From NCBI GenBank assembly GCA_947476925.1, contig CANJSF010000003.1:1-64000 (forward strand): a stretch of DNA of 64,000 nt. The letters are read 5' to 3'. Shown piece by piece: positions 1-14,984 of the stretch. The stretch's first letter is position 1. Every line of letters begins with the position of its first letter. The notes beneath the pieces were generated by a model that was not told where the DNA came from, ran no database searches, and saw only the letters and a program-made list of their open reading frames with translations. Origin of the DNA: Rhodospirillaceae bacterium (GTDB lineage Bacteria > Pseudomonadota > Alphaproteobacteria > Rhodospirillales > Rhodospirillaceae). The translations under genes were made by a program, and so were the position numbers.

Positions 1-1916
1 CTATTGGTTTGCTGTCGGGAATTTTACAGGTCATTTACGGGACGGTTGGCCTTGGTCGTCTGATCAAGTACATGCCTTATCCAGTGGTCAGTGGTTACCT
101 ATCTGGTGTTGGGCTGACCATTATTGGCAGCCAAGTTCCGCGACTGCTCGGCGTTCCCAGTGATTTACATTTCTGGTCGTCATTGCTCACACCAACGGCT
201 TGGCAGTGGCAAGGCATTGTGGTGGGGCTGGTGACAGCGCTCGTTATGGTTGGCGCGCCAAAACTCACAACCCGTGTTCCAGCTGTTATTCTTGCTCTCG
301 GGGCCGGAGTGTTGACCTATTTTGGTCTTGGCCTCGGTGATGCGGCGCTGCTTACGGTCGAAGGTAATCGCCTGATTGTCGGCCCCATGGGCGGCACGAG
401 TGGAATTGGCTCTGGCTTCGTCGACGCATTTTCGGCCCGCGTCAGCGCAATAAAAACGCTCGATTTCAAGCAATTGACGTCTTTGCTGATGCCTGCGCTG
501 ACCCTTTCGGTCCTGCTCTCGATTGATACTCTGAAGACCTGCGTCGTTTTAGATGCCATGACCCGAACACGGCATAACCCGAACCGCGAGTTGATTGGAC
601 AGGGATTCGGAAACCTAGCAGCAGGGTTTGTCGGTGGCATTCCTGGTGCGGGCACTATGGGTGCAACGCTCGTCAATATTTCAAGTGGGGCCGAGACCAG
701 GCTCTCTGGCACGATTGAAGGCCTATTGGCGCTCATCGCGTTTGTTTTACTCAGTCGCATAATCGCTTGGGTGCCGATCGGCGCGCTGGCCGCAATCCTG
801 ATCGTCATTGGCGTCCGAATGATTGATCGTCATAGTTTCGCACTGGTCAAATCGCGGCATACAAGACTCGACTTTTTCGTCATCGTGGCGGTTGTCATTG
901 TCGCGCTATTCGTTGGTCTAATCCCGGCTTCGGCCACAGGTATCGTTCTGGCCGTCTTCTTGTTCATTCGTGAACAACTGAGTAGTTCCGTCATTCGGCG
1001 CAAGACATACGGGAATTCGAACTTTTCGCTGCGGACACGCCCGCAGCAAGAGATGGAAATTCTTGAGGCACAAGGCGACCAGACTGTGATCCTGGAATTG
1101 CAGGGAAGCCTGTTCTTTGGTACCGCCGATCAGCTTTACTCGATCTTGGAACCCGAAATCGAAAAACGAAAATACATCGTGCTTGATATGCGTCGCGTAC
1201 AAGCCATTGATTTCACTGCCGCTCATTTGCTCGATCAAGTGCGTATCTCGATGAACGAAAAGAACGGGTTCCTCGTCTATAGCCAGTTGCCGACCAAACT
1301 CCCGTCGGGTCAAGACATGCAACAGTACATCAATCAAACAGGGCTGGCTCCCTACAAAAGTGCAGCCCGTGTGTTTGACGATATTGATGACGCGAAGGGT
1401 TGGATAGAAAACCGTATCCTGAAGGCGGCAGCAGGCACTTTAAAAGAAACGCCGATTAAAGACGCGCCAGAAACACCTTTAGAGCTTCATGAGATCGATC
1501 TTTTCAAAGAGCGCAAGCAAGAAACGCTTTTGGCGCTTGATGCAATTCTGGAAAAGGTCAGCTACACCGCCGGAGCAAGAATATTTGCGCACGGCGAGGC
1601 GTGCAATAAGTTGTTCTTCGTTCGCAGAGGCTTGGTTCGCCTGGTGCTGCCAATTGATGGCGCACATTCTCGCCACCTTTACACCTGCGGCCGTGGCGCG
1701 TTTTTCGGAGAGCAGACGTTCCTCGAAGGCGACGATAGTTTGACAGATGCGTACGCCCAGACTGACGTCGAACTATTTACAATCTCGCGTACCACCTTTG
1801 ACGCCTTTGCTGAGCATCACAAAAAGGCAGCACTCAACCTTTTTGGCGGGTTAGCCAGCGTTCTTACGGGCAGGCTGCGTTATCTCACGCGCGCATTGGC
1901 TGATCTGGAGTCCTAA
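1..1916 (+). CDS. SulP-family anion transporter with STAS and cyclic-nucleotide-binding domains (5' end outside window)
   Basis: This is an inner-membrane SulP/SLC26-type anion permease. The reading frame is already open at base 3 (I-G-L-L-S-G), so the N-terminus lies before the window. The visible part has about eight hydrophobic segments up to roughly residue 320, with the SulP-like stretch 'GNLAAGFVGGIPGAGTMGAT'. A STAS domain follows (about residues 345-460, 'VILELQGSLFFGTADQLY' and 'YIVLDMRRVQAIDFTAAH'). The last 120 residues form a cyclic-nucleotide-binding fold ('GARIFAHGEACNKLFFVRRG', 'GRGAFFGEQTFLEGD'). SulP-STAS-cNMP fusions are known. The substrate (sulfate, bicarbonate or a dicarboxylate) cannot be read from sequence, and whether the C-terminal domain binds cAMP is inference. 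Confidence 0.9.
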   Translation, partial: IGLLSGILQVIYGTVGLGRLIKYMPYPVVSGYLSGVGLTIIGSQVPRLLGVPSDLHFWSSLLTPTAWQWQGIVVGLVTALVMVGAPKLTTRVPAVILALGAGVLTYFGLGLGDAALLTVEGNRLIVGPMGGTSGIGSGFVDAFSARVSAIKTLDFKQLTSLLMPALTLSVLLSIDTLKTCVVLDAMTRTRHNPNRELIGQGFGNLAAGFVGGIPGAGTMGATLVNISSGAETRLSGTIEGLLALIAFVLLSRIIAWVPIGALAAILIVIGVRMIDRHSFALVKSRHTRLDFFVIVAVVIVALFVGLIPASATGIVLAVFLFIREQLSSSVIRRKTYGNSNFSLRTRPQQEMEILEAQGDQTVILELQGSLFFGTADQLYSILEPEIEKRKYIVLDMRRVQAIDFTAAHLLDQVRISMNEKNGFLVYSQLPTKLPSGQDMQQYINQTGLAPYKSAARVFDDIDDAKGWIENRILKAAAGTLKETPIKDAPETPLELHEIDLFKERKQETLLALDAILEKVSYTAGARIFAHGEACNKLFFVRRGLVRLVLPIDGAHSRHLYTCGRGAFFGEQTFLEGDDSLTDAYAQTDVELFTISRTTFDAFAEHHKKAALNLFGGLASVLTGRLRYLTRALADLES

Positions 1917-4450: not shown

Positions 4451-5671
4451 TTAGGCCGCCAAAGGCACCTGACGCTCAATTTCGATAGGCTCTTGTATCG
4501 CTTCAAGTTGGCGGAGATTTCGAAGGCGTTCAATTTGCGCCGCCGTTATCCGAACGCCGTCGGAAAGCAGGAGCTTGCCCGATTGTAACTTAATCGGAGT
4601 CAGCAAAAGGTCGGCCGGCAGAAGACTGTCCAGCATGACCTTGACCCGCGATTTCACACTGGCAGCGATCGTCGCCTCAGATAGGCCAGGCCCAATGCCC
4701 CACAATTTTTTTGCTGCGTTCAAGATCCGCAGATCATACAACTCGCTTCGTGCCAGAAGTTTTGCCACGGCGCTATCCGTTGGAACTTCGGTGGTTGTTT
4801 CAGCCGCTAGATCTTTCAAAACCCTTAGGGCTCTGGCCAGCACTGGAATACGTACGCCGCTTGGCCCACTTTCCGCAGCGCTACTCGCAGTATAGCTGCA
4901 ATCTTGCATTGAAATGGCTTCGGCAACGCTTTCAAGGCGCGGAATATGCATGAGCAACCTGCGAGCGGAGGCTGGCGCGCGGGAAATCATGGCTGCTTCT
5001 TTTTTCGAAATTTGTTTTGGAGAAACTCGCGCCTTTTCCAACAATTCGCCTGGAACAGCAACCAGACCTAGTGGATAGAGCATTGTCGCCATTTCCAGCT
5101 CCCATCCGCCGTTCAGCCCAATAGCCGCCGCAAGGGGTTGGGCCCACGCACGCGCACGATTAGACTTATCAAACTCGACGGGAACAACCAGCGACAATAC
5201 ATCGACCAATGCGCGCACACTGCCCGTCAACGTTTGTTGTAGAAGCGTTTTTTCCGCCACGACCAATTGGTGTTGCCGCAAAGCGTCGATGAGAGCCTGG
5301 CGAAGAACTGGCTCGGGGCATGGCTTCGTCAAGAATCTAGAAATTTTCCCGCGATTGATCGCGTCAACGGCTGTCTCTTGGTCGGAATTTCCCGTCAGCA
5401 TGATCCGAACTGTATCGGGGCTGCGACGCTCAAACTCTGCCAGAGTATCTACGCCACTCATTCCAGGCATGCGCATATCGCATACAACGACGGCCGGGCG
5501 ATGCGTCTCCAACATTTGAAGCGCGTTTTCGCCACCGAGTGCCGGTATCAAATTGAATTCTTTCCGAAGCTGGCGATGAATGGCCGCTAAGACATTCTTC
5601 TCATCGTCGACAAATAAAACCTTCTCCGGCGAAAGAACTCCTTCGGGTGGGCGTGCATCGCTCTCACTCAT
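4451..5671 (-). CDS. Response regulator with degenerate HD-GYP-like output domain (HnoD-like)
   Basis: A cytoplasmic two-component regulator of 406 residues. The receiver domain (about 15-135) keeps the acidic pair 'VDDE', the phospho-acceptor Asp65 in 'VVVCDMRMPG' and the conserved Lys in 'FLTKPC'. The second half follows the layout of an RpfG-type HD-GYP phosphodiesterase but lacks every diagnostic residue. The HD doublet is replaced by 'MLYPLGLVAVP', there is no HHE and no GYP. It therefore should not hydrolyse c-di-GMP. Such a degenerate HD-GYP regulator is HnoD of the Shewanella H-NOX network. ATG 5671 overlaps the upstream stop (ATGAGTGA, 8 bases), indicating translational coupling with the HDOD regulator. 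Confidence 0.85.
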   Translation of the reverse strand: MSESDARPPEGVLSPEKVLFVDDEKNVLAAIHRQLRKEFNLIPALGGENALQMLETHRPAVVVCDMRMPGMSGVDTLAEFERRSPDTVRIMLTGNSDQETAVDAINRGKISRFLTKPCPEPVLRQALIDALRQHQLVVAEKTLLQQTLTGSVRALVDVLSLVVPVEFDKSNRARAWAQPLAAAIGLNGGWELEMATMLYPLGLVAVPGELLEKARVSPKQISKKEAAMISRAPASARRLLMHIPRLESVAEAISMQDCSYTASSAAESGPSGVRIPVLARALRVLKDLAAETTTEVPTDSAVAKLLARSELYDLRILNAAKKLWGIGPGLSEATIAASVKSRVKVMLDSLLPADLLLTPIKLQSGKLLLSDGVRITAAQIERLRNLRQLEAIQEPIEIERQVPLAA

Positions 5672-6899
5672 TTGGCCATTCCTTACTAATTGTTTCCAAT
5701 ATCTTCTGCCATTCTGGAAGGCGTTGGCTGAGCCCATGCGCGCTCAGATATTCAGTGTCCCAATCACTTGATTTTTGCCCGGCTCTTCCCCCCTTCCCGT
5801 AGGCCTGACGGGTCAGATTCTGTGCCGCGTTAACCGCCGTCAGAACTTCGAGAGGGGCTTTTGTATAAATGCTTGGTTGATGATGGAATGCAACAGTCTC
5901 AGTAATCACATCAGAAAAGCCCCAGAGCCCTAGCAGGTATGCTCCGAGCTGCGCGTGGTTTGCTCCGAAAGCTTGTGTTTCAGCGTCCAACAAATCTAAC
6001 TGACGATTGTCAACTTGCGCCATCATATCCGAAAATTTGGCCGCATCATGAGCAATCAGGATCAGGGTACCAACATGCGACAGCAGGCCGGCACAAAAGG
6101 CTTGATCCACAATATCAGCACTCCATCCCTGATGTCGCGCAATGGCCTGCGCCAAGACGCCAATCGAAAGACTATTTTGGGACAGACGCTCAATGGTTAA
6201 CTGCGCTGACGGTCCAAGGTGTTTGAATTGATCAAACACGCCCGCAAGGAGAACGGCTGCGCGCACGTTGTCAAACCCAAGAAACATGACAGCCTGTCGA
6301 GCCGTCCGACATTTCTGTGGAAGACTGAAGTAGGCCGAATTTGTCAACTTCATCAGCTGCGCACTGACGCTGATGTCTTGTTCAATCTTCGCAGAGAGAC
6401 TTTCGGCTGATCCGTGCTCCGCGGTCAGCTCGGCGAGAATCTCAGCGTAAATCTTAGGTAAGGTTGGAAGATGTGAGAGGCTCGCAACCGCCTCCTTCAC
6501 CTTTTGGTCTTGGATATGGGCTCGGAGTGTCAGTGCGTTCTCGATTGAAGTGACGAGCACGGCCTCGGAACTCGGCTTGGCTAGATACCTGTGTGAGGGC
6601 CCGATCGTTTTCAGAATAGCTTCACGCTCTGCAAATCCAGACAGGACAATTCGAATCGAGCCGGGGTATTTTTTTTGCACAATTCCTAACAACTCAGAGC
6701 CATCCATACCCGGCATTTTCATGTCGGTGACGATGACGTCGGCAGGCTGTTGCGCCAACATATTAAGGGCCTCTTGGCCACCCAGTGCGAAACGTAAATC
6801 CCATGTATTGCGACGCGACCGCAGCATACGACCCAAGCCGCGCAAGACGTTCTCTTCGTCCTCGACAAACAGGATAGTGGGTTTCGATTCAATGTTCAT
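5664..6899 (-). CDS. Response regulator with HDOD output domain
   Basis: A 411-residue signalling protein. The N-terminal receiver has 'FVEDEE', phospho-acceptor Asp59 in 'VIVTDMKMPGMDG' and Lys in 'YLAKPS'. From about residue 140 an HDOD domain follows ('LSHLPTLPKIYAEILAEL', 'AQLMKLTNSAYFSLPQ', 'CRTARQAVMFLGFDNVR', 'ETVAFHHQPS'). HDOD is related to HD-GYP but is generally a non-enzymatic signalling module. ATG 6899 is chosen over upstream codons because it opens directly into the receiver fold. The gene is first of a two-gene operon with the degenerate HD-GYP regulator and is divergent from the HTH regulator at 7025. Confidence 0.9.
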   Translation of the reverse strand: MNIESKPTILFVEDEENVLRGLGRMLRSRRNTWDLRFALGGQEALNMLAQQPADVIVTDMKMPGMDGSELLGIVQKKYPGSIRIVLSGFAEREAILKTIGPSHRYLAKPSSEAVLVTSIENALTLRAHIQDQKVKEAVASLSHLPTLPKIYAEILAELTAEHGSAESLSAKIEQDISVSAQLMKLTNSAYFSLPQKCRTARQAVMFLGFDNVRAAVLLAGVFDQFKHLGPSAQLTIERLSQNSLSIGVLAQAIARHQGWSADIVDQAFCAGLLSHVGTLILIAHDAAKFSDMMAQVDNRQLDLLDAETQAFGANHAQLGAYLLGLWGFSDVITETVAFHHQPSIYTKAPLEVLTAVNAAQNLTRQAYGKGGRAGQKSSDWDTEYLSAHGLSQRLPEWQKILETISKEWPNE

Positions 6900-6966
6900 A
6901 TGGCATACCAAACAAGTTGAGGTCTTCGACCGGCGGAGTATGTTGCGCGAAGTTATCGGCAAGCAG

Positions 6967-6983
6967 TATCCCCAAATTAGGGG
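6967..6983. promoter_or_regulatory. Candidate shared operator (copy A) between divergent response regulators
   Basis: The sequence TATCCCCAAATTAGGGG contains a near-perfect 14-base palindrome, CCCCAAATTAGGGG, with one mismatched pair. It lies 42 bases before the start of the HTH regulator and 68 bases before the HDOD regulator. The first 11 bases recur exactly, inverted, at 10239-10249, and a close version occurs at 10039-10054. Regulatory function is inferred from this recurrence. Confidence 0.45.
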
Positions 6984-7024
6984 TTCCGGCGCTGCCAGCT
7001 AAATATTTGAGATATAAGGATAAT

Positions 7025-8065
7025 ATGCCCTCTCGAGTGCTCTTTGTCGACGACGAACCTCGGGTTCTCAGTGGCCTAAAGCGGTCATTGAGGGGCTACG
7101 CCCAGGCCTGGGACATGCATTTTGCCCAGAGTCCGGTTGCTGCACTGCAAGAATTCCTGGCTGAACCGTTTGATGTTGTCGTGTCGGACCTCGCAATGCT
7201 CGACATGGATGGCCTGAGCATGATTATGGAGATGCGTAAGGCAAAAACCGATACCGCGTTCATCATGCTCACGGGGACAGCCGATTTGCGGAAGGCCGTC
7301 GACGCCATTAATCAGGCTGAAGTGTTCCGGTTTTTCACCAAACCATGCAATTCGGCTTTACTCGCTGAAGGCGTAAATGCCGCGATCCGCGACGTGCTCG
7401 CTCGGAGGAAAGTAGTCAACGACAACCCGAGCGAACGGCCCGACATAAATGGTTTGAGTGAGGCGATTGGCCTGGCTGCCCTCAATAGGTTGGCGATTGG
7501 GGCGTTCGTCGTTGATGCCAATGCACGAGTGCTCCTGACGAATCTGTCCGCTGGCCAAATTTTAGCGACTCAGGATGGCATATTTCTAGGCGCCGATAAC
7601 GTCTGCCGGTTGAGCGTAAAGTCTGACACTGACCGCTTGCATCATTTGATTGAACGGGCGACGTCGCAAGTCCAGCAAGCTGATGACGATGACGAAACAA
7701 GCGGCATGCCAATTGTTCGGCCATCGCTCAAGCGCTCATATAGCGCGCTTGCTGTCCCACTCAGTTTACCGCTTGATCAAAAAACCGATAGCCATGGCCC
7801 GCTGGCGGTTATTTTTGTAACTGATCCTGAAAAGCAACCACTCCCATCGCCGGAAACGATGGCTCGGCTGTTCGGGCTAAGCCCGGCAGAATCACGATTA
7901 GCGCATGCGCTTGCTGAAGGCCTACGAGTTGAAGAAGCTGCCGAAAAGTGTGGCATTACCCTCAGTACGGCACGGACATACTTAAAACAGGCGTTCGTTA
8001 AAACGAATACAGGTCGTCAGTCCGAGCTTGTGAAATTAGTCATGACATCTCCCGCGTTAATCTGA
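7025..8065 (+). CDS. Response regulator with LuxR-type helix-turn-helix output
   Basis: A 346-residue transcriptional regulator. The receiver (about 1-125) shows 'LFVDDEPRV', phospho-acceptor Asp55 in 'VVVSDLAMLDMDG' and Lys in 'FFTKPC'. The middle (about 155-265) resembles the PAS-like segment found before LuxR HTH domains ('IGAFVVDANARVLLTNLSAG'). The C-terminal 60 residues are a LuxR-type HTH ('LFGLSPAESRLAHALAEG', 'AAEKCGITLSTARTYLKQAF'). ATG 7025 is preceded by ATAAGGATA, a usable ribosome-binding site. It is convergent with the H-NOX-linked kinase (21 bases between stops) and is the only DNA-binding output in the locus, comparable in role to HnoC. Confidence 0.9.
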   Translation: MPSRVLFVDDEPRVLSGLKRSLRGYAQAWDMHFAQSPVAALQEFLAEPFDVVVSDLAMLDMDGLSMIMEMRKAKTDTAFIMLTGTADLRKAVDAINQAEVFRFFTKPCNSALLAEGVNAAIRDVLARRKVVNDNPSERPDINGLSEAIGLAALNRLAIGAFVVDANARVLLTNLSAGQILATQDGIFLGADNVCRLSVKSDTDRLHHLIERATSQVQQADDDDETSGMPIVRPSLKRSYSALAVPLSLPLDQKTDSHGPLAVIFVTDPEKQPLPSPETMARLFGLSPAESRLAHALAEGLRVEEAAEKCGITLSTARTYLKQAFVKTNTGRQSELVKLVMTSPALI

Positions 8066-8086
8066 TGTCGACTTTCATCCCAATTG

Positions 8087-9430
8087 TTACTTGGACTGCC
8101 AACTCGCGCCGGTACCGTCAAGCGGCAGACGCAGTATAAAAGTACTGCCCTCCCCCAATTGCGATTCAACGTCGATGTTCCCGCCATGAGAGTTGCATAT
8201 AATCGAATGCGCGAGGGCCAGCCCCTGCCCGGTTCCTCGACCTGGCGTCTTTGTTGTAAAAAACAAATCAAAAATGCGTTTTAGATTTGCCGGCTCAATT
8301 CCACTGCCGTTGTCTTGAATGCGGCACTCGACCCCATTTTCGATAGCGTGCGTCGATATTACAATTTTGCCCAATTTACCTGCGTACTTTCGATCCTCGA
8401 TTGCATGGGTTGCGTTCACAATGAGGTTCAAAATCACCTGCGTGAGTTCGCCCGCATTTGACATGATCGGCGGAAGGTTTGGCGCAAGCTCAAGATTTAG
8501 TTCGGCGACATATTTCCACTGATTCTTCGTCACCAATACTGTCGTATGTATGATCTGGTTGAGATCATTGGCCTCTTTGGTGGCGCTGGCGGGATGGGAG
8601 AAGCGCTTAATTGCAAGCACAATCTCTGCGATGCGTTCAAGTCCATCAATCGATTGTGTAATTGCTTGGGGCACTTCGGCGTCGAGATACTCAAGATCAA
8701 ATTTATCCACGACACGTTTTGCCACGTCCGGCGTGACACACACCTTCAAGTCCTGGACTGCGGCAACGAGATCGGTGAACGCCTTTTGCAGAAACCTTGT
8801 GTTGTCGGTCACAAATTGAATGGGCGTGTTTAACTCGTGCGCTATGCCCCCCGCCATTGTGCCGAGGGATTCGAATTTCTGAGACTGTTGAAGTTCTGCC
8901 TCGAGTTTTCGTTGGCGCATCTCAGCCTCGACACGAGCGCTGATGTCACGCACCATCCATACAACTTGATCGGCATCAATCCGCGTTGCTGTTATTTCGC
9001 AAGGAATCTCGACGTTGTCCTTGGTTCGTGCCGTCGAAACATAGGGCAGATGAGAGCTAAATAGTTCTTCTTTCTTTGATGCAGAAAGGTTTTCAATAAA
9101 TGGCAAGAACTCAGCCAACAATCTGCCTATTGCAGAACTTGTCGTTAGGCCAAATTTTTGACAAGCCATCGCATTCACATCGAGGATCGTGTTGTCACGG
9201 GCGGTGACAAATACGCCGTTCGGCATGCTTTCGAGGATCGCGCGTGTGCGATCTGCCGATTCTCTCACTTGAGCAAATGCATGCTTAAGCTGCTCGTGAG
9301 ACTCAAATAACTGACTGCTTTTTTCTTCAAGTTGGCGTTCCGCCTCCTTGCGCGCCGCGCGCTCACGCTCTGCGCGCTTTGCCAGGCGCTCGACTTCGGT
9401 AAGTTGATTTGCGTTCGCGATCACGATCAA
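8087..9430 (-). CDS. Cytoplasmic PAS-containing histidine kinase linked to H-NOX
   Basis: A soluble sensor kinase of 447 residues with no membrane segment. Order: an N-terminal coiled coil rich in Glu/Arg (about 10-60), a PAS domain (about 62-165, 'ILESMPNGVFVTARDN'), a dimerisation/phosphotransfer domain with His198 in 'GTMAGGIAHELNTPIQF', and an ATPase domain with N-box 'VILNLIVNATHAIED', G1 'IQDNGSGI' and G2 'GRGTGQGLALAHSI'. It starts 8 bases after the H-NOX stop, so the two are co-transcribed. In characterised systems H-NOX binds the kinase and NO-bound H-NOX inhibits autophosphorylation. The start codon is TTG 9430; GTG 9424 is an alternative. Confidence 0.92.
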   Translation of the reverse strand: MIVIANANQLTEVERLAKRAERERAARKEAERQLEEKSSQLFESHEQLKHAFAQVRESADRTRAILESMPNGVFVTARDNTILDVNAMACQKFGLTTSSAIGRLLAEFLPFIENLSASKKEELFSSHLPYVSTARTKDNVEIPCEITATRIDADQVVWMVRDISARVEAEMRQRKLEAELQQSQKFESLGTMAGGIAHELNTPIQFVTDNTRFLQKAFTDLVAAVQDLKVCVTPDVAKRVVDKFDLEYLDAEVPQAITQSIDGLERIAEIVLAIKRFSHPASATKEANDLNQIIHTTVLVTKNQWKYVAELNLELAPNLPPIMSNAGELTQVILNLIVNATHAIEDRKYAGKLGKIVISTHAIENGVECRIQDNGSGIEPANLKRIFDLFFTTKTPGRGTGQGLALAHSIICNSHGGNIDVESQLGEGSTFILRLPLDGTGASWQSK

Positions 9431-9438
9431 TCGGCTTT

Positions 9439-9978
9439 TTAATGCGTTCTCGTAAGTTCGAATTTGACGACTTTGCCACCCGCCTCGTCTTTACGCTCAA
9501 TTTTAATGGGCTCCCCAAAGTGCGTAAAACAACCCAGCATAAGGCCTTCGGCAAAGTCTCCAAGGCAGCGCGGTGAGCGATAAATCATCGACATCCGATC
9601 AGGCGAGACGGCGGTTGTTTCAAAGCTAGGCAGTTCGGCTTCGGGATATAATTTACGAACCTCGACATGAACGATCTGATCAATCGTTGATAAGAATCCG
9701 AAGCTATCTGTGACCTTCTCGAAGAATACGGGGTAGCCGTCAAAAAACCTCCTAAATAAATATTCTCCATAGGCCCGCAGCAGGTCTGGCACTTTGGCTT
9801 GCGATCGCTTGCTCAGTTCAATGACCAGCCGGCCCAACTCAGCATGCGGATAAGTACCAACCGAAGTGTATGCGCCGTGATTGGGCAATTCTGCCGATTC
9901 AATAATATCGTCAAGCATTTCTGGACTGAACTTCTGCTCGACCATTTCAAAGAACTCGGTAAACACAATACCCTTTAT
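9439..9978 (-). CDS. H-NOX haem-based nitric oxide sensor, probably with a non-AUG (AUA) start
   Basis: A cytoplasmic gas sensor of about 179 residues. It keeps the proximal haem ligand His in 'IVHVEVRKLYPEAELPSF' (His100 counted from GTG 9966) and the haem-propionate motif Tyr-x-Ser-x-Arg as 'YRSPR' (129-133). It also has the family's 'GAYTSVGTYPHAEL' and 'DLLRAYGEYLF'. No distal-pocket Tyr that would suggest O2 binding stands out. The first standard start is GTG 9966, but upstream codons read I-K-G-I-V-F-T-E-F, matching the family N-terminus M-K-G-I-I-F. The Met position is ATA at 9976-9978, behind an AGAGGTGAG Shine-Dalgarno. The histidine kinase follows in the same operon. Confidence 0.92.
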   Translation of the reverse strand: MKGIVFTEFFEMVEQKFSPEMLDDIIESAELPNHGAYTSVGTYPHAELGRLVIELSKRSQAKVPDLLRAYGEYLFRRFFDGYPVFFEKVTDSFGFLSTIDQIVHVEVRKLYPEAELPSFETTAVSPDRMSMIYRSPRCLGDFAEGLMLGCFTHFGEPIKIERKDEAGGKVVKFELTRTH

Positions 9979-10038
9979 AATCTCACCTCTGATAATTGCG
10001 ACGGTAAAAAAATACTAAAAACTTCGATGCATCAACGG

Positions 10039-10054
10039 TATCCCCAATTGGTGG
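10039..10054. promoter_or_regulatory. Candidate shared operator (copy B) in front of H-NOX operon
   Basis: TATCCCCAATTGGTGG lies 61 bases upstream of the ATA start of the H-NOX gene. Its core CCCCAATTGGTG is a near-palindrome, and the same 12 bases recur inverted at 10312-10323. It also matches the first nine bases of copy A at 6967. Regulatory function is inferred. Confidence 0.42.
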
Positions 10055-10238
10055 TAAAGCGGCCATTACGCCATCCGCATTCAGCCCTCAATTGTATGTG
10101 ATCTGCTGGCCGATGCGCTTGCCGAGGTCTTGTCGTGCTGATTTTTCGCCGCAGAGCCCTTCCAATATATAAATTATGAGATTTATCAATGGTTTAAACG
10201 CATTCAAAGAAAAAGCACAGAATTGCTGCCATGTCTCT

Positions 10239-10249
10239 ATTTGGGGATA
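10239..10249. promoter_or_regulatory. Candidate shared operator half-site (copy C) in front of membrane kinase
   Basis: ATTTGGGGATA is the exact reverse complement of the first 11 bases of copy A (TATCCCCAAAT at 6967-6977). It lies 81 bases upstream of the start of the membrane histidine kinase gene. A second related element, CACCAATTGGGG at 10312-10323, lies right before that start and may instead serve as its ribosome-binding region. Confidence 0.38.
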
Positions 10250-10329
10250 TGGCCCAAGACAGATTCCGGCCATTCTCGAAGCCTAATCACGGTCGCTCAG
10301 TTTTAAAAGCGCACCAATTGGGGCTTCGC

Positions 10330-12324
10330 ATGTCTATCAAGTTTAAGCTAATCGCAGCATTGAGTGTTCTTGCGCTCATTATATCGGCGAACTCGGCGTT
10401 TATTTGGTTAACCGCACGGGACCAAAATTTGCGCCTCAGCGATGGTCGAGCTCGTTATGTGGCGACTGCTGGGCAGGCTGCCAACCTTGTTGTCCTCATC
10501 AAAGACATGGAATTATTGATGGTTGAGGTGCAGCAGTATTTATCAGATGTCTCGGCAACGCGTGCGCGCGATGGTCTCGATACAGGATTCAAGAATGCAC
10601 AATATAACGCCGATCAATTTGCATTGCGTGCAATCGGCGCCCGCTCAGTTGCGAAAGAACTTGGCCGTGTGGATATCGTAGAGGCCATCGATCAAGCGCA
10701 AGCGCTGTTTAAGCCTTATTATTTCCTCGGCAAAGAAATGGCTCAGGCCTACATCGACGGTGGTACGGACGCGGGAAATTCCCGCATGATCGAGTTTGAC
10801 GCCGCCGCCGACGACTTGCGGATTGTCATGGATACTTTGAAGTGGCTGACGGGATCAAAGCTGAGCGACACAATTGATGGGGCGGGCCAAGACGTCGACA
10901 TTATCGCTGCAAATTCGCAGCGACTTGTTTACCTGGTCGCGGCTTTGGCCCTGCTATCGTTGGGCACCATCGCTTTGGTTTCATTCATGGTTTACAGCAA
11001 TATTCTGCGACCGCTTTACGGTATGACGAAGGTCTTAAAGTCGCTGGCCACGAATGAAGCCGACGTCAACATTCCAGTCGTGAATCGGGGTGATGAAATC
11101 GGCGATACGGCTCAGGCATTGCAAATTTTTAAAGAAAGCCAATCGGCGCGACGTTCATCAGACGCCATTCAAAACATACTCAATCGAATGCCGATTGGCG
11201 TTTTTTCGGGCTCGCCGGATGGCGTGATCGATTTCGGAAATTCTTACGCACGCACGATGTTCAATGTTGGACGCATTGAAATCCACGGCATGCCCATCGC
11301 CGACTTCCTACCGGCTTTAGCGGGCGCGGAAGACTTAGAAATGGCCGTGCTAGATGAGCTGGAAAAAAATTCGTTTATTACGGCTCGACGTTATGGGGGA
11401 TCAGAGTTTAAGAGCGATGTCCAAATCGCATCGGTTGATGATCAGGGTCGGTTACTCTGGGTGATTCGCGATGTCACCAAGAAGATACAAGCTGACGAAA
11501 AGCGAGCCGAACTCGAAGGCGAACTGCGGAATGCCCAAAAGCTAGAATCTTTAGGCACGATGGCCGGTGGTATTGCACACGAGCTCAATACACCGATTCA
11601 ATTTATTACGGACAATACCAATTTCCTGAAAACGGCATTTGGCGATCAAGCGCATGCGATCGCTGACTTTCGTAGTCTTGTTTCGGCTGCCGATGCCGAC
11701 AACATCTCTTCAAAGTATGATGTTGAATATCTTGAAACGGAAGCGCCGCAGGCGCTTGACCAGTCACTCGAGGGGCTGGCGCGTGTTTCTGAAATCGTCT
11801 TGGCGGTGAAGCGATTCTTGCACCCCAGCAGCGCCGGTTTTACAGCCAACAATCTCAACGACATTGTGAAGACAACAGTCACCGTCTCGCGCAATCAATG
11901 GAAGTACATCGCTGAACTTGAATTAGATCTCGACCCCAATTTGCCCACCGTGAAGTCGAATGCCGGTGAATTGAATCAAGTCCTGATTAATCTCATTGTA
12001 AATGCGGCCCATGCCATTGAAGACAAGAAGCAACCCAGTGAAAAAGGCCTTATTAAGGTATCAACACGCACTGTTGAGGGCGGAGTAGAATGTTGGGTGA
12101 GCGACAATGGAACCGGCATAAAGCCGGAGATCGCAAATAAGATATTCGACTTGTTCTTTACGACGAAGCAGCCGGGACGCGGGACAGGTCAGGGCCTTTC
12201 CGTTGCCCACTCTATTGTGACCCGGACACACCAAGGCAAGATATGGGTGGAATCAGAAATTGGCAAAGGCACAACGTTCAAGGTGATGCTGCCGCTGGCG
12301 CCTGCAACCGCATCTGTCGTGTGA
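10330..12324 (+). CDS. Membrane-bound sensor histidine kinase (periplasmic sensor, HAMP, PAS, HisKA, HATPase)
   Basis: An inner-membrane kinase of 664 residues. Transmembrane segments lie at about 5-28 and 200-223. Between them is a ~170-residue helical periplasmic domain. A HAMP linker (about 224-277, 'NILRPLYGMTKVLKSLA'), a PAS-like domain (about 280-385), the phosphotransfer site His417 in 'GTMAGGIAHELNTPIQF', and an ATPase domain ('NQVLINLIVNAAHAIED', 'GRGTGQGLSVAHSI') follow. From HisKA onward it is strikingly similar to the H-NOX-linked kinase, suggesting duplication and shared response regulators. ATG 10330 is chosen because it opens directly into the first membrane segment. No dedicated regulator is adjacent. 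Confidence 0.92.
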   Translation: MSIKFKLIAALSVLALIISANSAFIWLTARDQNLRLSDGRARYVATAGQAANLVVLIKDMELLMVEVQQYLSDVSATRARDGLDTGFKNAQYNADQFALRAIGARSVAKELGRVDIVEAIDQAQALFKPYYFLGKEMAQAYIDGGTDAGNSRMIEFDAAADDLRIVMDTLKWLTGSKLSDTIDGAGQDVDIIAANSQRLVYLVAALALLSLGTIALVSFMVYSNILRPLYGMTKVLKSLATNEADVNIPVVNRGDEIGDTAQALQIFKESQSARRSSDAIQNILNRMPIGVFSGSPDGVIDFGNSYARTMFNVGRIEIHGMPIADFLPALAGAEDLEMAVLDELEKNSFITARRYGGSEFKSDVQIASVDDQGRLLWVIRDVTKKIQADEKRAELEGELRNAQKLESLGTMAGGIAHELNTPIQFITDNTNFLKTAFGDQAHAIADFRSLVSAADADNISSKYDVEYLETEAPQALDQSLEGLARVSEIVLAVKRFLHPSSAGFTANNLNDIVKTTVTVSRNQWKYIAELELDLDPNLPTVKSNAGELNQVLINLIVNAAHAIEDKKQPSEKGLIKVSTRTVEGGVECWVSDNGTGIKPEIANKIFDLFFTTKQPGRGTGQGLSVAHSIVTRTHQGKIWVESEIGKGTTFKVMLPLAPATASVV

Positions 12325-12327
12325 TTT

Positions 12328-13275
12328 TTAATTGCGCCGTGTGACGGCGTCAGTCGCATCAGCTTTCACGTCCCTCACCACCCGAAACCCCAACCGATAC
12401 ATGCGCTGCGTTTGAGGAAATGTGACGCGGGCGGCGGAGCGCAGCAGGAACAGGCTGCCATCCCACGTTCCTCCGCGCATGACCGGGTCGCAACCGGGTG
12501 TGTCATGCCATGCCGCAGATGTGCCAGGCGCACCATCGTAGGTGTCATGGATGCAGTCGCCGGTCCATTCCCACACGTTGCCCATCATATCGTACAAGCC
12601 GAACGCGTTTGGTTTAAATGACCCAACAGGCGCAGTGAAGACGAAGCCGTCGTTACAGCTTAGCGCAGGCCAGTCATTAAAATGGGCTTTCATCGCGTCA
12701 TCGGCAACATTGCCATAAGCGCACGCGATAGCAGTGTCGTCGCCCCAGTACCGCGCGGTTGCGCTGCCGGCGCGGGCGGCGTACTCCCACTCGGCTTCGC
12801 TGGGAATGCGATAGGTGTGGCCCGAACGTTGCGACAGCCACGCCGCATATTTTTGCGCGTCACTCCAGTCGACACACACGACCGGGTCGTCATCAGTTTG
12901 GGCAAAGCCGGGATTGCGCCAGTCGCGTTCAGGCGCGCGCTCCCATTTATTATTGCCCCAAAATAAGCAATTCGCCTGAATCGTCGTGCCTGTATCGGCC
13001 ACAAATGCTGCAAATTCTGCACGCGTGACCTCGGTTCTGCCCATCGCAAACGGATGTGGGATGACAACCTGGTGCTGAGGGTACTCACGCGCGGCCATGC
13101 GCGCGGGCACCTTCTCTCGGTTTGTTTCAGCTTCGGTTGATCCCATGAGAAACTGACCCGCAGGTATCAACACCATCGCGGGGCATTTGGCGCAATCTTG
13201 GATTGGCGCGCGCGTCACAGCCGTGGAACAGCTACTGAGGCCTATGAGCAGCAAAAGCAATGCAAAGCGGCGCAT
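12328..13275 (-). CDS. Lipoprotein with formylglycine-generating-enzyme (SUMF1) fold, without catalytic cysteines
   Basis: A 315-residue predicted lipoprotein. The signal peptide ends in a lipobox 'IGLSSC' (Cys16 if started at ATG 13275). The body is an FGE-sulfatase/SUMF1 domain, marked by 'MVLIPAGQFLMGS', 'ALAMGRTEVTR'-like spacing, 'RIPSEAEWEYAARAG', 'GLYDMMGNVWEWT' and 'RLGFRVVRD'. True formylglycine-generating enzymes carry two catalytic Cys after the RGGSW motif. Here the stretch is 'RGGTWDGSLFLLRSAARV' with none, so sulfatase activation is unlikely and a binding or structural role is more plausible. It begins 5 bases after the TPR gene stop, so the two are an operon. It is convergent with the membrane kinase. 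Confidence 0.88.
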   Translation of the reverse strand: MRRFALLLLLIGLSSCSTAVTRAPIQDCAKCPAMVLIPAGQFLMGSTEAETNREKVPARMAAREYPQHQVVIPHPFAMGRTEVTRAEFAAFVADTGTTIQANCLFWGNNKWERAPERDWRNPGFAQTDDDPVVCVDWSDAQKYAAWLSQRSGHTYRIPSEAEWEYAARAGSATARYWGDDTAIACAYGNVADDAMKAHFNDWPALSCNDGFVFTAPVGSFKPNAFGLYDMMGNVWEWTGDCIHDTYDGAPGTSAAWHDTPGCDPVMRGGTWDGSLFLLRSAARVTFPQTQRMYRLGFRVVRDVKADATDAVTRRN

Positions 13276-13280
13276 ATGTC

Positions 13281-14984
13281 TTAGCGGGCCATCGCTGCCA
13301 GGTCCTGCGCTACGCTCGCGACGACCCCGCCCCAATCACCAGGCGTTGTTTGGTGAAATAGTTTCATGCTGGGATACCAAGGGGAGTCGGTGCGGTCAGT
13401 CAGCCAGCGCCAGCATCCGTCGAAACGGCTGAGAACCCACACCGGAATGCCAAGGCCGCCTGCCAAGTGGGCAACAGCCGTATCGCAGGTGATCACGAGA
13501 TCAAGGCACGAGGTCAGTGCCGCCGTATCAGCGAAATCAGAAAGGCTTGAGGTATAATCAAGTAGGGCCGGGCCACCCCAACGCGTAGCATTTAACTGTG
13601 CAAGCTGTGCTGCGGGGCTACCTTTTTGTAAACTGACAAAAGTAACGCCAGGAATCTTGCCTAAGGGTTCAAAGGCGCTCAGGGGGAGTGAGCGTTTCTT
13701 ATCAATCGCTGCTGCAGCAGGCATGTTTGGGCGCGGGCTTCCCGCCCACACGAGGCCAACGCGAAGACCATGAGTGCTCGCGAGCCTCCTTTTCCAATTC
13801 TCCGCCAGCGACGAATCTGGTTTTAAATAAACGGCGCTTGGGATCGTTTCGACAGTGAGTCCCAAAACGAATGGCAGGCTCATCAGCGGGCAGAAATAGT
13901 CATGCACCGGTCGCGCCTCGTCCTCGGCGATCACAGAACTCACGCCGTCGAGATTGGCAAGCAGTCGTCGCAAAGGACGCGGGACTTCCAGAACCACACG
14001 CGCACCGCGTGCAGCAACCAAGCTGGCTAAGCGAGAGAACTGAATTGTATCGCCTAACCCCTGCTCGGCCTTCAGCAGGATCGTTTTACCGGCGATGTCT
14101 TGATCGCCCCGCCATTGCGGCGCTGTAGCGCTTTCAAGAATGGGAGCTAACTCCGGGGTTTTGAGTCGCCATTCGTAGGTCCGCCAACCTTTGGCAAATT
14201 CGCCCGTTGCCAGCTGGCTCATGGCCAGATTGACGTGTGCTCCGGCAAAATCTGGCTGGGCCAGAATTGCTTTTTGAAAGTCTGAAATCGCCGCCGTGAA
14301 CTTTTTGAGATGCCGCTGCGCATCGCCGCGATTGTTCAGCACGTCAGGATGGTTGGGCACAATGGTCAGCGCCTGATCGAATGAGGCCAATGCGTCAGCG
14401 TGCCGGCCCAACTCGCATAGAGCATTTGCGCGATTAAAGTGCGCTTCAAATGACGCAGGATAAATGGCTAAGGCTTTTTCATAACAGGTCAATGCTGCAT
14501 CGTGCGCTCCGCTCTGAGCGTTCAAGAGACCGCATAACACCAGGGCTTCGGCATAATTCGGATTCTGCGACAACGCTGTGTTGATTGACCCCATCGCTTC
14601 GGGTGCACGACCCAAGCCAACCAAAGCCTTGGCGCGATTATAGTGCGCTTCCGGTTGCAACGGCTTTAGGGCGATGGCGCGGTCAAAATCCGAAAGCGCG
14701 GCACTATAATTGAGCAGGGCAACCTGACCTGCACCGCGATTGCTAAAGGCGGCGGGCTGTCGTTGATCGATCGCCAAGGCTTGGCCAATAAATTCAACGG
14801 CGGCTTTGGGGTCGCCTTGTTGAAGATGGGCAACCCCGAGCAAATGCAGCGCGTCAAAATGCCGCGGCTCTTGCTTTAAAAGCTGGGAATATAGGCTTTT
14901 GGCAGCATCTATCGCGCCCTGCTGATGCAGACCGAAAGCCTGCTTGAAGATTTCGTTTGAATTTCGCGGTTGGTCTTGGGGCAT
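13281..14984 (-). CDS. TPR-repeat protein with C-terminal glycosyltransferase-like domain
   Basis: A cytoplasmic protein of 567 residues. Around residues 10-290 are about eight tetratricopeptide repeats, e.g. 'FDALHLLGVAHLQQGDPKAA' and 'EAHFNRANALCELGRHADAL'. The C-terminal half resembles the GT9/GT41-like domain often fused to TPRs ('GKTILLKAEQGLGDTIQFSR', 'VGLVWAGSPRPNM', 'VITCDTAVAHLAGGLGIPVW'). Such proteins are annotated as O-GlcNAc-transferase-like or ADP-heptose-transferase-like, but donor and acceptor are unknown. It forms an operon with the FGE-fold lipoprotein downstream. Confidence 0.87.
   Translation of the reverse strand: MPQDQPRNSNEIFKQAFGLHQQGAIDAAKSLYSQLLKQEPRHFDALHLLGVAHLQQGDPKAAVEFIGQALAIDQRQPAAFSNRGAGQVALLNYSAALSDFDRAIALKPLQPEAHYNRAKALVGLGRAPEAMGSINTALSQNPNYAEALVLCGLLNAQSGAHDAALTCYEKALAIYPASFEAHFNRANALCELGRHADALASFDQALTIVPNHPDVLNNRGDAQRHLKKFTAAISDFQKAILAQPDFAGAHVNLAMSQLATGEFAKGWRTYEWRLKTPELAPILESATAPQWRGDQDIAGKTILLKAEQGLGDTIQFSRLASLVAARGARVVLEVPRPLRRLLANLDGVSSVIAEDEARPVHDYFCPLMSLPFVLGLTVETIPSAVYLKPDSSLAENWKRRLASTHGLRVGLVWAGSPRPNMPAAAAIDKKRSLPLSAFEPLGKIPGVTFVSLQKGSPAAQLAQLNATRWGGPALLDYTSSLSDFADTAALTSCLDLVITCDTAVAHLAGGLGIPVWVLSRFDGCWRWLTDRTDSPWYPSMKLFHQTTPGDWGGVVASVAQDLAAMAR

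Follow-up and report, generated by a model that had tools for sequence, protein, structure and literature searches.

We describe a six-gene locus in a 64,000-nucleotide stretch of contig CANJSF010000003.1 from a Rhodospirillaceae bacterium (the whole stretch is called the window), in which an H-NOX sensor for nitric oxide (NO) and its histidine kinase HnoK lie beside a second kinase and three response regulators. Judged from sequence, the locus looks like a case of H-NOX serving as the input of a common, self-regulating module that appears not to have been described before and that consists of a LuxR-type regulator, an HDOD regulator and an HD or EAL regulator. We consider it probable that the locus forms a branched two-component network, working like the H-NOX network of Shewanella and built on a reusable alphaproteobacterial response-regulator module. 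The proposed network would operate as follows: 1) NO binding by H-NOX would change the autophosphorylation of HnoK, as family membership suggests; 2) the second kinase, with a chemoreceptor-like sensor and an HnoK-type core, would bring a second signal to the same regulators, to judge by the shared core and the shared operator; 3) both kinases would phosphorylate the three regulators, whose phosphorylation sites are intact; 4) the PAS-LuxR-type regulator would bind a palindrome, located by comparison, in three promoter regions and so control all four transcription units, with binding and sign both predicted; 5) the HDOD and degenerate HD regulators, probably co-translated, may work through protein-protein contacts, perhaps between the two of them; and 6) H-NOX would be one of several interchangeable inputs of the module.

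Pfam matches and open reading frames (ORFs) bore out the gene content given in a preliminary description of the locus, namely H-NOX, a cytoplasmic kinase, a membrane kinase and three response regulators at 4451-12324. The order along the H-NOX strand is H-NOX, HnoK, the LuxR-type regulator (reversed), REC-HDOD and REC-HD, and the second kinase is transcribed divergently from H-NOX. HnoK begins 8 nucleotides past the H-NOX stop, the LuxR-type gene starts at 7025, and the HD regulator starts with the ATG at 5671, overlapping the end of the HDOD gene by 8 nucleotides. When 12 HDOD-HD pairs were measured, the nearest candidate start was at most 12 nucleotides from the HDOD stop in nine and 46 to 95 nucleotides from it in three. 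The same five-gene order was found in L032 (loci, genomes and contigs compared here are numbered with L, G and C), which comes from another genus of the family and has an H-NOX 66% identical to that of the window. L051 and L105 possess the same gene set, and L040 a near-complete one. Because the five-gene order recurs in L032, the grouping of these genes is not due to chance, and a uniquely assembled locus is ruled out. No plasmid record matching the locus was found by blastn, and a scan for sigma-70 promoters and terminators gave counts close to those of shuffles (7 against 7.7 and 11 against 9.9).

The putative operator was found by reading the promoters of the window and of L032, in which it is perfect as GTTACCCCCAATTGGGGGTAAC. 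Its consensus is TNTCCCC-AWWT-GGGGANA, with an AT-only centre (AWWT) and weak flanks. A symmetric 20-position matrix, made from seven sites of relatives and none of the window, ranked the window sites at 10038 (18.8 bits), 10231 (16.0 bits) and 6966 (12.1 bits) first to third in the 64 kb, with the next site at 8.1 bits; the promoter regions holding the three sites make up 0.74% of that length. A second matrix from 24 other loci, likewise free of window sites and partly dependent on the first because its sites were chosen with it, ranked 10231 first (21.2 bits), 10038 second and 6966 third (10.5 bits). A flat search of the window for CCCCAATTGGGG with up to three mismatches yielded 29 matches against 37.1 expected. 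This is no better than chance, indicating that the operator signal needed the full palindrome and the comparison.

The association of the palindrome with the LuxR-type gene was examined among relatives. With its own and sister sites removed from the matrix, a score of at least 15 bits was reached in 9 of 10 LuxR-containing loci (L051 scored 14.9) against 2 of 102 other H-NOX loci, nearly all of them without a LuxR-type gene in the fetched stretch. Shuffles equalled the positives in one of 100 cases for L037 and L051 and in two of 100 for L205. Among 42 LuxR-regulator loci outside the training set (37 of 40 newly fetched loci plus L203, L204, L205, L236 and the window), a site of at least 15 bits lay at the start of the LuxR-type gene in 24, against 0.82 expected from random stretches of the same loci, and a site of at least 12 bits in 27. 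Eight loci had been set aside, L322-L324 as second, weaker copies and L206-L210 as weak matches; none has a 15-bit site at that start, giving 24 of 50 for the unsplit set. This split was made after the site lists were known, and the E-values of L322-L324 (6e-68 to 1e-64) resemble those of kept loci such as L318-L321, L325 and L205. L237 was excluded from the 42, its LuxR frame being split and its best site there scoring 12.5 bits, and L291 and L307 come from a genus that supplied training sites but are different loci. The best site of L204 (9479, 16.6 bits) lies at the 3' end of the LuxR-type gene and thus counts outside the 24 and inside the 9 of 10. Six family loci without a LuxR-type gene (L241-L246) hold one site above 15 bits, within the HDOD gene of L245. 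From these comparisons, the LuxR-type regulator looks like a self-regulator of the module, acting through the shared putative operator. No paper on any of four operator core strings was found in the open-licence PubMed Central literature.

Of the 317 genomes of the order that were searched, at least 76 contain the LuxR-type regulator (E no higher than 1e-50). Its C-terminal helix-turn-helix (HTH) matched GerE with 17 bits, below the cut-off of 23.5. In an AlphaFold model (mean predicted local distance difference test score, pLDDT, 76; predicted template modelling score 0.46), REC is followed by a PAS-like fold and a C-terminus of five helices. The best Foldseek matches of the model are REC domains; full-length FixJ and StyR (5xso, 5xt2, 1yio) come within the first 50. 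FixJ/StyR-type regulators bind inverted repeats. Like these NarL/LuxR-type proteins, the regulator joins REC to HTH; unlike them, it has a PAS-like domain in between. All three REC domains of the locus retain the phosphorylatable Asp, the acidic pair, Ser/Thr and Lys, as read from alignments.

Next, we asked which genes accompany the module. The genome searches scored the best candidates per genome (5, up to 6, 16 or 25 depending on the search), so that the tallies are lower bounds, and locus labels came from small profiles of our own, used for HDOD, HD, EAL, FIST, LuxR and H-NOX only. In the 42 LuxR-regulator loci, REC-HDOD was present in 29, REC-HD in 13 (by domain presence), REC-EAL in 7, and H-NOX in one (the window); FIST was absent from all. 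HDOD is also present in five of the seven EAL loci, and L307 has LuxR, HD, HDOD and EAL all together. These counts make the LuxR-type regulator, HDOD and a kinase the commonest partners, with HD, EAL and the sensor varying. Within the family, HDOD regulators of this type (E at most 1e-30) gave at least 35 hits in at least 26 of 73 genomes; 21 of the 26 are without H-NOX, and all five H-NOX genomes of the family are among the 26. Judged by eye from the two sets of hits, a kinase of the HnoK or second-kinase type adjoins 30 of the 35, with a LuxR-type gene in between in four, and three of the five hits without a kinase alongside are near a contig start.

As the preliminary description had suggested, the neighbourhoods of H-NOX genes were surveyed for HDOD. 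Among the matches listed, REC-HDOD occurred within 9 kb in 8 of 111 H-NOX loci (the window, 30 others and the best 80; L070 repeats L033): the window, L032, L037, L039, L040, L051, L105 (uncultured Kiloniellaceae) and L090 (a Rhodothermaceae metagenome-assembled genome, MAG). Among the same matches, REC-EAL lay within 9 kb of H-NOX in one locus, L071, and in four more an EAL protein was followed by a REC-like match. Alternative sensors of the module are FIST/NosP (L037, L039), a phosphonate-type binding protein with a kinase (L032, L040, L051) and an MHYT kinase (L237); in other module loci the place of the second kinase is likewise held by a binding protein and kinase, a NosP-kinase pair or an MHYT kinase. 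The broader proposition, which we advance tentatively and with low confidence, is that a PAS-LuxR/HDOD/degenerate-HD (or EAL) set with one operator would be a general alphaproteobacterial hub with swapped H-NOX, NosP, MHYT and periplasmic sensors, whose HDOD-HD output would be co-translated, non-enzymatic and independent of cyclic dimeric guanosine monophosphate (c-di-GMP).

Several of these loci deserve separate mention. In L037 and L039 (f17 of the order), a FIST (NosP) gene, identified by Pfam in L037 and by our own profile in L039, is followed by a kinase, REC-HDOD and REC-HD leading directly into H-NOX, so that one cluster joins both NO sensors to the same regulators. A NosP partner in the window's own genome was rejected, there being no FIST match at E 0.001. 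In L237 (7347-9350, genome G048), an MHYT-domain kinase stands as sensor of a LuxR-HDOD-HD cassette and has a 17.6-bit operator site at its frame start. L090 (9872-14548) reads HNOX-kinase-REC-HDOD-REC-HD; no LuxR-type gene was found there and the best operator score is 10.7 bits. Its presence in a MAG labelled Rhodothermaceae reflects either transfer or mis-binning.

The H-NOX of the window retains the proximal His (H103) and the Y-x-S-x-R residues Y132, S134 and R136 in alignment with relatives, and the solved H-NOX chains that were compared have both features too. We take Y-x-S-x-R to be the haem-propionate motif of H-NOX. Phe141 presumably occupies the position at which the Thermoanaerobacter protein has its O2-binding Tyr140 (both the rule and the reference sequence being assumed here), which points to NO rather than O2 as the predicted ligand. 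The aligned start of the gene is an ATA codon at 9978-9976; of 16 relatives shown, 14 have ATG, one GTG and one is truncated. The sequence there reads ATA-AAG-GGT, with a Shine-Dalgarno-like GAGGTG 5 nucleotides upstream; either ATA is a rare start codon, or the gene starts at a GTG four codons later, or the codon is a sign of early decay or sequencing error. H-NOX is sparse, occurring in 5 of 73 genomes of the family, 12 of 297 of the order and 18 of 385 of the class, with the window's own genome counted each time and the order and class sets being overlapping samples. Two H-NOX matches elsewhere are unusual: L004 (G048:C9) contains an in-frame TAG, with the N-terminal part absent in that frame, and L146 is an H-NOX locus in a MAG record titled Klebsiella pneumoniae, perhaps mislabelled.

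On the output side, alignment confirmed that the HD-GYP regulator is degenerate, both the HD pair and the GYP motif being lost. It scored 193.7 bits against the NCBIfam NosR model, below the cut-off of 400. In the REC-HD alignment, 11 of 25 rows are degenerate (nine distinct loci including the window, some with GYP-like residues) and 14 intact; the HD pair is also absent in seven of seven further REC-HD proteins of the family. Intact HD-GYP rows occur beside H-NOX in L036, L038, L114 and Paenibacillus loci. HDOD domains are not known to be catalytic.

A c-di-GMP-independent network, as had been proposed at the outset, was not established by these data. The search for an EAL regulator elsewhere in the genome did find one: among eight EAL matches (seven over the cut-off, two being pieces of one stretch) is a REC-EAL gene on contig C66 (4943 bases), unlinked to the locus and cut by the contig end. 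Since this REC-EAL may be a target, independence from c-di-GMP cannot be claimed. A quite possible alternative, which we hold short of probable, is that the network still controls c-di-GMP, with the degenerate HD regulator acting on an EAL or GGDEF enzyme elsewhere, such as the C66 REC-EAL; it is compatible with the branched network on a reusable module and differs in output. The eight EAL matches favour it, as do the action on c-di-GMP enzymes proposed for degenerate HD-GYP proteins in the available text on NosR (PMC12570481) and that of HnoD in Shewanella (PMC6335343). Against it, the REC-EAL contig is not joined to the locus and carries no operator, the best score being 6.4 bits in the part scanned and 4.7 bits on the whole contig with the second matrix. 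Another EAL gene of the same genome (L065/L067, C16:45575-46281) is apparently split over two frames, with stops in the second piece.

The preliminary description also held that the EAL phosphodiesterase is missing and that HDOD takes its place. The first half stands, as the locus has no EAL gene; the second does not. In L241, L242, L244, L245 and L246, kinase-HDOD or kinase-HDOD-HD sets exist without H-NOX or LuxR in the fetched stretch, as they do, with an added REC-EAL, in L243; REC-HDOD and REC-EAL coexist in one fetched stretch in six loci (L203, L205, L307, L319, L320 and L243). These two observations rule out that HDOD takes over from EAL. An HnoK/HnoBCD network with HDOD substituted for the EAL enzyme HnoB, which would hence be c-di-GMP-independent, would fit the absent EAL gene, the overlapping HDOD and HD genes and the degenerate HD domain; it is improbable given those HDOD-kinase pairs, the coexistence in six loci and the EAL genes of the own genome.

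The two kinases share a catalytic core, as first described: that of the membrane kinase is 60% identical to the HnoK core, a tree, which has no support values, places both with HnoKs of the same family, and the H-box GGIAHELNTPIQF is common to both. The sensor and HAMP region of the second kinase is 31-32% identical to an own-genome protein that reads as a chemoreceptor, and its structure model (pLDDT 81) is all-helical with two very long helices. Its start is most likely 10330, because the operator occupies 10231-10250. From its sequence, the second kinase is best read as a chimera bringing a second signal to the same regulators, in the place that HnoS holds in Shewanella. A second membrane kinase also occurs in L032, L040 and L051, that of L032 being of a different type. 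That the second kinase and H-NOX/HnoK are separate systems and mere neighbours, as its divergent transcription, its own sensor and the different kinase in L032 might suggest, is improbable in view of the same kind of operator site at the second kinase, its core grouping with family HnoKs and the second membrane kinases of L032, L040 and L051.

Compared with known systems, the locus is closest in architecture to the Hno network of Shewanella oneidensis (HnoX-HnoK/HnoS-HnoB-HnoC-HnoD, reviewed in PMC6335343, PMC8846402 and PMC8738867, as far as their available text goes): both place H-NOX next to a kinase and include another kinase, a transcription factor among the regulators and a degenerate HD-GYP regulator. 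In the available part of PMC6335343, two kinases feed HnoB, HnoC and HnoD, and HnoD acts on a c-di-GMP enzyme. Transcription-factor feedback on the locus, published for HnoC, is suggested here by the operator. The differences are that our locus has no EAL protein HnoB and has an HDOD regulator, that its transcription factor is of PAS-LuxR type and likened to HnoC by role, and that its second kinase carries a chemoreceptor-like sensor. By analogy, the locus would work like the Hno network but lacks its HnoB feature. The Burkholderia NosP-NosK-NosR system also combines an NO sensor, a soluble kinase and a degenerate HD-GYP regulator; it differs in having a FIST sensor and one regulator, with no HDOD or LuxR-type partner described in the available text, which proposes that degenerate HD-GYP regulators act on other c-di-GMP enzymes (PMC12570481). 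In Caulobacter crescentus, an alphaproteobacterial H-NOX likewise adjoins HnoK, whose targets are called unknown in the portion of PMC10746521 at hand. In open-licence PubMed Central, which mostly lacks subscription papers and is hence weak evidence, no paper combined H-NOX or NosP with HDOD. HDOD with nitric oxide, response regulator and histidine kinase gave no paper there either, and HDOD with response regulator, LuxR and histidine kinase led to one paper, listed as being on aspartate-less receivers.

Sites resembling the operator were also sought beyond the locus. They occur 5' of the binding-protein-kinase operon in L032 and L040 and at the LuxR/binding-protein promoter in L037 and L039. 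Genome-wide pattern counts (up to two mismatches, both strands) against a reversed control were 33 to 10 in G108, 23 to 9 in G088, 9 to 4 in G070, 3 to 1 in G063 and 1 to 1 in G647; of these, the counts of G108 and G088 alone are informative. In six of the stretches inspected in these two genomes (L177, L178, L180, L182, L183, L186), a site lies roughly 50 to 110 bp upstream of a REC gene. The own-genome site C8:125353 (L173 5953-5972) scores 24.5 bits and lies 133 bp before the gene of a 91-residue protein, membrane-like by eye, which is followed by a REC-only protein; it possibly marks a second regulon member. Sites L190-L192 of G147 are weak. In G108, one site (L181) lies near both a hemerythrin-domain gene and a binding-protein-kinase pair, and a hemerythrin gene is second in line after another site (L176). 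Sites in L179, L184 and L185 lead into small proteins that are hemerythrin-like by eye or unassigned; the scanned ones have no Pfam match.

Several observations weigh against an NO-responsive, self-regulating module of this kind. Eighteen of the 42 loci have no 15-bit site at the LuxR-type gene. Site 6966 is imperfect, and 1.15 sites of at least 12 bits, at any position, are expected by chance per 64 kb. The own genome had 6 pattern matches against 4 in the control and G147 had 12 against 26, the strong site of L175 has no adjoining gene start, and the G070 sites outside the locus (L187-L189) fall within or near unrelated genes. With its ATA start, H-NOX may be expressed at a lower level or not at all, and four other species of the genus gave no match for H-NOX, HDOD or the LuxR-type regulator. 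According to the available text of PMC10746521, Caulobacter biofilm was unaffected by added NO, with or without H-NOX.

Table 1. Genes and candidate operators of the H-NOX locus (positions in the window).
Feature	Position	Strand	Evidence
REC + degenerate HD-GYP response regulator (HnoD/NosR-like)	4451..5671	-	PF00072; PF13487 (HD_5) 84 bits
REC + HDOD response regulator	5664..6899	-	PF08668 168.8 bits; alignment of HDOD regulator family
Candidate operator between divergent HDOD-HD and LuxR-type genes	6966..6985	.	12.1 bits, relatives-only matrix
REC-PAS-LuxR-type HTH response regulator (HnoC role)	7025..8065	+	Pfam REC; weak GerE/Sigma70_r4_2; AlphaFold model
Cytoplasmic PAS-HATPase histidine kinase HnoK, H-box HELNTP	8087..9430	-	Pfam; core tree
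H-NOX haem NO sensor, aligned start codon ATA	9439..9978	-	PF07700 139.7 bits (cut-off 25.5)
Candidate operator 5' of H-NOX-HnoK	10038..10057	.	18.8 bits, relatives-only matrix
Candidate operator 5' of second kinase	10231..10250	.	16.0 bits, relatives-only matrix
Second kinase, membrane-bound: helical sensor, HAMP, PAS, HnoK-type core	10330..12324 (listed ORF from 10231)	+	Pfam

Two further genes of the window were noted. An FGE-sulfatase-type protein is encoded at 12328-13335 (minus strand); a search with it matched 22 times in the own genome and 8 to 19 times in the four remaining genomes of the genus, suggestive of an expansion. At 9-1916 (plus strand) lies a SulP-type transporter with STAS and a C-terminal cyclic-nucleotide-binding domain.

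The proposed module would turn an odd locus into a testable rule, by which one DNA site marks the module, sensors are swapped in front of it, and HDOD, HD or EAL outputs stand behind. It may offer a route to the function of HDOD response regulators and to candidate targets of alphaproteobacterial HnoK, as well as to the way in which NO and further inputs come together in a single response.

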